From a virus: DNA of 21,990 nucleotides. A model generated the notes under the pieces. The model saw nothing but the letters and a program-made list of their open reading frames with translations, had not been told where the DNA came from and made no database searches. The stretch spans positions 1 to 21,990 of IMG/VR virus record IMGVR_UViG_3300024298_000046, one strand, 5' to 3'. This document shows positions 9,225-14,301 of this stretch, in pieces (within the stretch, counting starts at the first letter, position 1; the number at the start of each line of letters is the position of its first letter). Both the position numbers and the translations under genes were made by a program.

Positions 9225-9266
9225 AAAAAAAGGGGCGTGAGCGTGCTTGCGCACGCCCACGCCCCT
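9225..9266 (-). terminator. Strong rho-independent terminator
   Basis: On the minus strand AGGGGCGTG pairs with CACGCCCCT (9 bp), then after a 1x1 mismatch GCGTGC pairs with GCACGC (6 bp) around a four-base loop. The hairpin is followed directly by seven T (9231-9225; the first T overlaps the stem). It lies about 20 bases after the stop of the 125-aa gene and closes the accessory operon. Confidence 0.9.
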
Positions 9267-9286: not shown

Positions 9287-9664
9287 TCAGACGAGCGTCG
9301 TGGTGGCAGTGCTGGTGGTGGTCTCCAACGGCTCGCCCGTGTGCGGGTTCACTGCGCTGGCGTACCACAACGCTTCACGCTTGCCGTTCTCGGCACGATA
9401 GCCGACCAACTGCGTGAGCACCATCACGGCAAGTTCGCCCGTGCGTGACTTGGTCACGACCAGACTGTCGCCTGCCTTGGCTGTCTCGCTCGTAGCCACC
9501 GCGTACTCGCGACGGTACTGCTTGCGCTCGTCTGCCGTGAGCGCACGGTACTGCTCGCCCGTGATGAGCGTGGCAGTCTCGGTGTGGTACCAGCGTGAAG
9601 TGTGTCGCCACACTCCCGTCAGCACGCCTGCGAGCAGGCGCACCATTGCTTCGATTGCGGACAT
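9287..9664 (-). CDS. 125-aa hypothetical protein, last gene of the accessory module
   Basis: The start is well supported by AAGGAG eight bases before the ATG, downstream of its own promoter box. Residues 1-19 form an amphipathic or hydrophobic helix (AIEAMVRLLAGVLTGVW). The middle is charged and contains TADERKQYRREY (about 43-54), followed by a beta-prone part, and the C-terminus is Thr-rich. I do not recognise a family and see no catalytic motif. It is separated from the MoxR/VWA genes by a structured RNA and a separate promoter copy, so it can be expressed alone while sharing the same control box. Confidence 0.75.
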   Translation of the reverse strand: MSAIEAMVRLLAGVLTGVWRHTSRWYHTETATLITGEQYRALTADERKQYRREYAVATSETAKAGDSLVVTKSRTGELAVMVLTQLVGYRAENGKREALWYASAVNPHTGEPLETTTSTATTTLV

Positions 9665-9684: not shown

Positions 9685-9702
9685 GTCGGCGGGATTGCCG
9701 AC
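9685..9702. other. Leader hairpin after the promoter box
   Basis: GTCGGC and GCCGAC form a 6-bp stem with a six-base loop between the promoter box and the ribosome site of the 125-aa gene. A similar stem lies after the second box copy (14168-14181). Confidence 0.4.
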
Positions 9703-9707
9703 AACGA

Positions 9708-9731
9708 GATTATCCCCCACCCCGAAATCGG
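9708..9731 (-). promoter_or_regulatory. Promoter/operator box, copy 1
   Basis: 24 bases, 23 of them identical to 14190-14213. Minus strand: CCGATTTCGG (an inverted repeat, CCGA-TT-TCGG), then a G/T-rich spacer, then GGATAATC with a GATAAT -10-like hexamer. It lies 43 bases before the start of the 125-aa gene. A combined promoter and repressor-binding site is inferred from the conservation and the inverted repeat. Confidence 0.6.
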
Positions 9732-9809
9732 CTCCCGACAACGCGCGCACGCGCTGCGCAGCGCACCTGTGCGCCTGCGTGGTATTGCGCGCTGGCTTCG
9801 GTAGCGATT

Positions 9810-9906
9810 GGCACGAATAAGGGCGCAGTTACCCAGGTTGCCCTGAGTCCCTGCGCCCTTTGGGCCGGTTTGGGCGACTATTGCCGCCTAGCCAACCATT
9901 CGTGCC
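9810..9906 (-). ncRNA. Putative structured RNA, three-way junction
   Basis: The minus-strand RNA folds by eye into: P1, 9 bp, GGCACGAAT (9906-9898) with ATTCGTGCC (9818-9810); P3 (9897-9867), GGTTGG... with a GGCG/CGCC tip; and P2 (9860-9819), a 10-bp stem AAGGGCGCAG/CTGCGCCCTT continuing through a GG/AA tandem mismatch into a 7-bp stem capped by a GCAA tetraloop (GNRA type). The GNRA loop and tandem G-A only make sense on the minus strand. It starts on the last base of the stop codon of the 25-aa gene. It lacks tRNA T-loop features and a T-run. A 3' mRNA-end structure, an independent small RNA or a regulatory element are all possible. Confidence 0.55.
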
Positions 9907-9983
9907 TACTCACGCAGTATCCACCAAAGGACCACTGCCACCAGCGATACTGTAATGCCTACGAAGTAATCGTAGGTTGACAT
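9906..9983 (-). CDS. 25-aa single-span membrane microprotein
   Basis: ATG at 9983, TAG at 9908-9906. The peptide begins MSTYDYFVG, carries a hydrophobic core (about residues 7-22, rich in Val/Ile/Leu/Trp) and ends LRE, which is one transmembrane helix with short polar ends. No good Shine-Dalgarno is seen, and a 13-base palindrome lies just upstream. It follows the 230-aa gene in the same direction and is followed at once by a structured RNA. Short hydrophobic ORFs occur by chance, so this is a moderate call based on the clean TM profile and its position in an otherwise empty stretch. Confidence 0.4.
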   Translation of the reverse strand: MSTYDYFVGITVSLVAVVLWWILRE

Positions 9984-9995
9984 ACGGTCTGCTGC

Positions 9996-10008
9996 GCTGG
10001 TGACCAGC
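9996..10008. repeat. 13-base odd palindrome GCTGGTGACCAGC
   Basis: GCTGGT-G-ACCAGC, 13 bases before the microprotein ATG and 50 bases after the 230-aa stop. It could be an operator or a small RNA hairpin; no second copy was noticed. Confidence 0.35.
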
Positions 10009-10057
10009 AGGCTCACGGGTAGTAACGGGATAGGTAAATCTGACCATCGCTTCACGG

Positions 10058-14181: not shown

Positions 14182-14189
14182 CACGACGG

Positions 14190-14213
14190 GATTATCCACC
14201 ACCCCGAAATCGG
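14190..14213 (-). promoter_or_regulatory. Promoter/operator box, copy 2
   Basis: One mismatch from 9708-9731. Here the inverted repeat extends to CCCGA-TT-TCGGG and is followed by the GATAAT hexamer. It lies 52 bases before the 116-aa gene and should drive the MoxR/VWA operon. A CG-alternating stretch (CACGCGCG) flanks both copies. Confidence 0.6.
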
Positions 14214-14250
14214 GTCGGGAACACGCGCGTGCCTACGGTAGGGAGACTAT

Positions 14251-14297
14251 GGGGCGCCCCGCGCGATCGCGTTCGCGCCGGTAGCGGTAGCGGTAGC
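14251..14297. repeat. GC palindromes and three tandem GGTAGC units
   Basis: The perfect palindrome GGGGCGCCCC (14251-14260) is followed by a CGCGATCGCG palindrome and three head-to-tail GGTAGC hexamers (14280-14297) ending next to the stop of the 69-aa gene. There is no T-run, so it is not a standard terminator, but the fold could end or protect the upstream mRNA. Confidence 0.5.
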
Positions 14298-14301
14298 GGT
14301 T

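Follow-up and report, generated by a model that had tools for sequence, protein, structure and literature searches.

Most mycobacterial genes have, no more than 50 bp from the stop codon, a hairpin that lacks a poly-U tract (PMC12288462). Rho-independent terminators without poly-U tails are also reported from the actinophage phiC31, in its early region (Ingham 1995, as cited in PMC8355165), and the title of Czyz 2014, found in the reference list of PMC8355165, states that a U-tract is required by the mycobacterial polymerase. It is disputed whether terminators lacking the U-tract function with the actinobacterial polymerase.

Here we consider a 97-nt structured element on the minus strand of a stretch of viral DNA of 21,990 nt (the window). 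The main genes around the element are on this strand as well. Read in their own direction, those of the upstream block encode a MoxR-type ATPase, a 484-aa protein, a 230-aa protein and a 49-aa protein, and the block ends at the element; past the element come a promoter-like block, the gene of a 125-aa protein with a U-tailed terminator behind it and, after further genes, that of the terminase large subunit (Table 1). With the final gene of one block on one side and a promoter-like module that is repeated on the other, the element is placed as expected for a terminator. The explanation that we prefer, and to which we give about an even chance of being right, is that the element is a compound, U-poor intrinsic terminator or a transcript-end hairpin separating two transcription units.

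The 484-aa protein we take for a VWA-like partner of the MoxR ATPase, which is our own reading and comes without a VWA family match. The genes of the MoxR-type ATPase and of the VWA-like protein are adjacent, and the pair is kept across the phage group. The product of the 49-aa ORF has a 41% identical homologue in L004, the closest relative. The first 60 residues of the terminase large subunit showed weak matches to helix-turn-helix and small-terminase families, and this N-terminal part is possibly a fused DNA-recognition part. The phage encodes a WhiB-like regulator, and this gene points to an actinobacterial host; a prophage search with the phage proteins against bacterial genomes returned remote ATPase matches only and no host.

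Table 1. Features of the window in and around the element, with coordinates given as window positions.
Feature	Position	Strand	Remarks
MoxR-type AAA ATPase	12869-12147	-	
484-aa protein	12201-10747	-	matches a PHROG of unknown function
49-aa ORF, small hydrophobic protein, final gene of the upstream block	9906..10055	-	TAG at 9908-9906
P1 base stem, 5' strand GGCACGAAU	9898..9906	-	9 bp with 9818-9810; begins on the final base of the TAG of ORF 9906-10055
Arm 1	9863..9897	-	6 bp + 6 bp; conserved TAGGC(A/G)(A/G)CA motif at 9890-9882
Arm 2	9819..9860	-	AAGGGCGCAG-GG-ACUCAGG-GCAA-CCUGGGU-AA-CUGCGCCCUU; hairpin retained in relatives
P1 base stem, 3' strand AUUCGUGCC	9810..9818	-	gives, joined to the two final U of arm 2, the U-rich tail TTATTCGT
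Motif CGCTACCGAAG	9796..9806	-	retained in at least 18 related loci
Promoter-like repeat, copy 1	9701..9747	-	GCCGATTTCGGGGTGG-GATAATC; ~40 nt ahead of a gene start
Promoter-like repeat, copy 2	14183-14229	-	83% over 47 nt; again ~40 nt ahead of a gene start
125-aa gene, first past the element	9287..9664	-	no family match; L004 homologue 46% identical
U-tailed intrinsic terminator after the 125-aa gene	9231..9266	-	16-bp stem, GCAA loop, TTTTTTT; internal comparison
Terminase large subunit	7278-5329	-	gene ~2.5 kb from the element

Folding of the element (minus strand 9906-9810, 97 nt) produced a three-way junction with a minimum free energy (MFE) of -64.1 kcal/mol, and the MFE structure was identical to the centroid. 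The three nested helices that the initial annotation had drawn by eye, a 9-bp base stem, a side arm and a longer arm, were reproduced, with arm 2 built of 10 bp, a GG/AA tandem mismatch, 7 bp and a GCAA loop. The same annotation had assigned the structure to the minus strand, and the opposite (plus) strand reached -51.9 kcal/mol, which is 12 kcal/mol weaker. It had also placed the element directly after a stop codon, with which the element proved to share one base, the final one of the TAG, and had seen no tRNA features, in agreement with a tRNA/tmRNA search that found none.

Dinucleotide shuffles of the element folded at -35.7 +/- 3.8 kcal/mol, and 0 of 200 were equally stable (z -7.47); the stability is therefore beyond that of shuffled sequence. 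When both strands were scanned in 100-nt windows, 2190 in all, the element ranked second in energy, with the U-tailed terminator at 9231-9266 as the sole stretch above it, and its z of -9.1 against mononucleotide shuffles was the best among the 16 most stable 100-nt windows. With arm 2 swapped for a fixed stub, the remainder of the element still had a z of -4.5 (0/500 shuffles), and a helix of P1 length between both flanks arose in 6/500 shuffles; therefore P1 and arm 1 are not merely carried by arm 2. Within a context of 200-360 nt, the pair probabilities of P1 and arm 2 were 0.84-1.0, and no competing fold was found. The folded minus-strand RNA structure is real and very stable.

Related viral contigs were collected by a terminase search (80 contigs) and by a search with a MoxR alignment (77 contigs). 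In L004, which has the gene order of the window and an alignable intergenic region, we observed a 19-bp version of arm 2 with a GAAA loop, followed by TTTTTCGTCTTTC. When the 42-nt hairpins of the window and L004 were matched base for base, starting at the foot of the stem, many pairs differed and both hairpins stayed paired; several of these differences were changes on both sides, part of which a one-base register shift could account for. Long hairpins were present at the element's place in 7 A-type and at least 11 B-type loci. In the A-type loci L005, L006, L007, L009 and L089/L105 these were hairpins of 16-22 bp with other sequence, and in distant relatives the hairpin sequence was almost unrelated, with differing helices around the recurring long hairpin. 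The motif TAGGC(A/G)(A/G)CA and CGCTACCGA frame the region in A-type and B-type loci. As another candidate motif, TAGGCAAC of L185-L198 was rejected, being merely a GCAA loop on a CUAG stem.

The B-type loci (at least 11) share a 16-bp stem around the TAGGC motif. All of its 192 pair cells were standard, four pairs had changes on both sides, and slid versions of the stem were paired at 38-54%. In a shuffle control of the B-type pair count, three measures (cells paired, cells changed on both sides, covariation score) exceeded every one of the 500 shuffles, while two did not (pairs changed on both sides, 89/500; pair types, 471/500). The MAFFT alignments of arm 2 across subgroups were out of register and were therefore left unused for covariation counts, with the pairs listed per sequence instead.

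On the sense strand, each stem contained from 1 to 5 G-U pairs. These pairs, together with the compensatory changes, show that the RNA pairing is selected. In a fixed window the sense strand was more stable in 21/25 loci, with a mean difference of -4.4 kcal/mol, which is support and not a clean test because the loci are related and were chosen by a sense-strand hairpin. This comparison includes the most distant loci, L170-L183, whose hairpins may overlap a small coding region and which were left out of the family evidence. The predicted folds of L004, L006, L007, L009 and L089 join the final codons of the small hydrophobic gene upstream to a segment that adjoins TAGGC, and both partners carry changes; the end of this gene may be under selection for coding and for RNA pairing at once.

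The tails of the hairpins were evaluated with a TransTerm-like score. In the window, the G-C core is followed by the tail TTATTCGT, with 5 T in 8, which scored 2.68 compared to a 99th percentile of 2.44 over all window positions; a terminator scan of the window did not flag the element's hairpin. The L004 tail TTTTTCGT contains TTTTT, scored 4.20 and was flagged by the terminator scan. In most relatives the tails were poor (scores of 0-1.8 in 11/14 loci), and a second hairpin ~500-1000 nt downstream in the same genomes had a tail score of 2.2-5.9. We also observed in relatives U-tailed hairpins downstream of the element that are comparable to the one at 9231-9266. The phage group thus has good U-tailed terminators and makes no use of one at this place, which counts most against the terminator reading.

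Of the features of a canonical intrinsic terminator, the stable G+C-rich hairpin is present. The arrangement of the U-poor (I-shaped) type, a hairpin without poly-U within ~50 nt of the stop, is found as well, with the stop at 9908-9906 and arm 2 beginning at 9860. Since U-poor terminators are reported for mycobacteria and phiC31, the problem of the weak tail is eased, though not removed. The initial annotation had seen no terminator features, a claim that has to be withdrawn: the stem is flanked by AAA and the U-rich tail, the hairpin of L004 ends in a flagged T-tract, and the position is one where a terminator is expected.

Beyond the element, the 47-nt repeat of the promoter-like block holds GATTTCGGGGTGG and GATAAT and is probably a phage promoter; its 13-nt core also occurs in L004, L136, L137, L142 and L143. 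The sequence CGCTACCG has 7 copies in the window compared to 0.5 expected. Because copies of it precede the shared GATTTCGG core by 67-69 nt at both repeat sites, the motif is better read as belonging to a promoter region than to an RNA, and CGCTACCGAAG is less likely a part of the RNA than a box in the DNA of the promoter region downstream.

Three copies of CGCTACCG stand in tandem directly past a gene end (window 14279-14298, minus strand), and similar (CTACCG)n repeats are present in relatives (L007, 4541-4660; L009, 4276-4385). In B-type loci, past the MoxR gene (for example L158, +2814; L161, +2737), a second hairpin with a GCAA loop is followed by TTCTT or TTATT and then by CGCTACCGAT; it lies ~450 nt downstream of the first. 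A hairpin with CTACCG may be a recurring boundary module.

We infer from these features that the region's transcription would terminate at the element and begin again from a promoter beyond it. The element would be the folded 3' end of an actinophage gene-block transcript, that of the MoxR-type ATPase, its partner and two small genes. Arm 2 would be the working part: once the RNA polymerase leaves the last gene, the long G+C-rich hairpin would form and would stop or pause the polymerase at the U-rich stretch UUAUUCGU. P1 and arm 1 would extend the fold in this phage, and P1 could draw the tail from the RNA-DNA hybrid. Transcription of the next gene and of the terminase region would restart at the promoter-like block ~70-120 nt on. 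A bolder proposal, which we consider improbable, is that a cis-acting phage RNA, with the motif TAGGC(A/G)(A/G)CA and, past a hairpin of free sequence, CGCTACCGA, would set the ratio of termination to read-through where an accessory block gives way to the packaging genes, across a whole clade of uncultured actinophages, perhaps with a phage protein that reads the motif.

The long, nearly perfect stems with freely changing sequence and no conserved U-tract are also what is expected of a duplex recognised by its shape. The processing sites of phage T7 are a precedent for a duplex that is cut by RNase III or that protects the message. The blocks might accordingly be read through, with a host enzyme cutting the 16-22 bp duplex or with the duplex shielding the upstream message from 3' exonucleases; a true terminator stands one gene later. 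An RNase III processing site or stabilising hairpin is the strongest rival, because it needs the long duplex and does not need the U-tract. Still, the U-tailed version at the same place in L004 speaks against it, the downstream promoter-like block argues for a boundary, and we consider this reading unlikely, if far from negligible.

Searches for a family bear on the next alternative. Rfam gave no match at the element at the gathering score, and a permissive scan returned far sub-threshold matches only, none at the element. A covariance model of 11 B-type sequences (the best-aligned relatives) found its own kind and neither the window nor L004; its match to the A-type hairpin of L105 was weak (16.8 bits, E 0.16). 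A nucleotide search in cultured phages returned only chance matches of 19-33 nt, and the exact 22-nt core was found in viral contigs in one near-identical contig only. The motif-pair pattern gave 52 stretches in viral contigs, where those beside MoxR, VWA-like or terminase genes are homologues and most others look like chance. P1 and arm 1 were absent in L004, whose flanks fold otherwise. With Rfam empty and the B-type model missing both the window and L004, we conclude that the relatives keep the position and the hairpin, not one fold, and, on the loci compared, the three-way junction is a feature of the window's phage.

A new covariance-defined ncRNA family was therefore rejected, since P1 and arm 1 are absent in L004, the B-type model misses the window, and arm 2 alone is kept. 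The suggestion of an unreported phage RNA holds in so far as no match was found in the libraries searched; a discrete, conserved three-way-junction ncRNA is unsupported. The checks proposed with it had a divided outcome: compensatory changes appeared in the relatives' hairpins, with P1 and arm 1 missing from L004, and the covariance search from 11 relatives did not reach the window.

For the same reasons we regard as rather improbable an independent, trans-acting ncRNA of ~100 nt, whose three-way junction would bind a protein or a target RNA. All three helices beat chance in the window sequence, and TAGGC(A/G)(A/G)CA of arm 1 is at the same place in relatives, which speaks for such an RNA; against this, the closest relative does without P1 and arm 1, no covariance family emerged, a promoter of its own was not seen just upstream, and the element overlaps a stop codon.

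The predicted pairing beside TAGGC, with its changes on both sides in L004, L006, L007, L009 and L089, would fit a regulated read-through switch, where alternative pairings (of the upstream gene end with an AACC segment, in A-type loci) couple translation of the small gene to termination. In the window, however, this pairing is weak, and the single fold, with MFE equal to centroid and no competitor in 200-360 nt, makes a switch very unlikely. A DNA-level element (a cruciform, a packaging or a replication site) could be suggested by the distance of ~2.5 kb to the terminase gene and by the repeated CTACCG boxes nearby, but each G-U pair of the stems would become an A-C mismatch on the opposite DNA strand and the sense strand is the more stable in 21/25 loci, so that we give this idea hardly any credence.

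If the transcript-end reading is true, the element marks a transcription-unit boundary in a clade of uncultured phages, and ~20 natural variants, some with a U-tract and some lacking it, occupy a single fixed position. Such a set would lend itself readily to testing whether transcription in actinobacteria is ended by U-poor hairpins, a disputed point. The case would also illustrate that a fold which looks striking in one sequence can be a compound terminator and not a new RNA class.

The comparison with known systems can be summarised as follows. T7-type hairpins for RNase III share with the element an intercistronic duplex of about two turns and a shape kept over sequence, whereas the element has a promoter-like block and a U-rich tail nearby. 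Canonical intrinsic terminators, such as the one at 9231-9266, resemble it in the G+C-rich stem, the stable tetraloop and the U-rich tail (present in L004, partial in the window); compared to them the element is longer, has an internal G-A mismatch and side helices, and its tail is poor in most relatives. The phiC31 early-region terminators and the 'I-shaped' mycobacterial terminators, as far as the cited accounts describe them, also have a long G+C-rich hairpin ~45 nt past the stop with little or no U-tract, in an actinophage and adjoining a repeated promoter-like sequence; unlike those described there, the hairpin of the element sits inside a three-way junction, and the element is a predicted terminator only.
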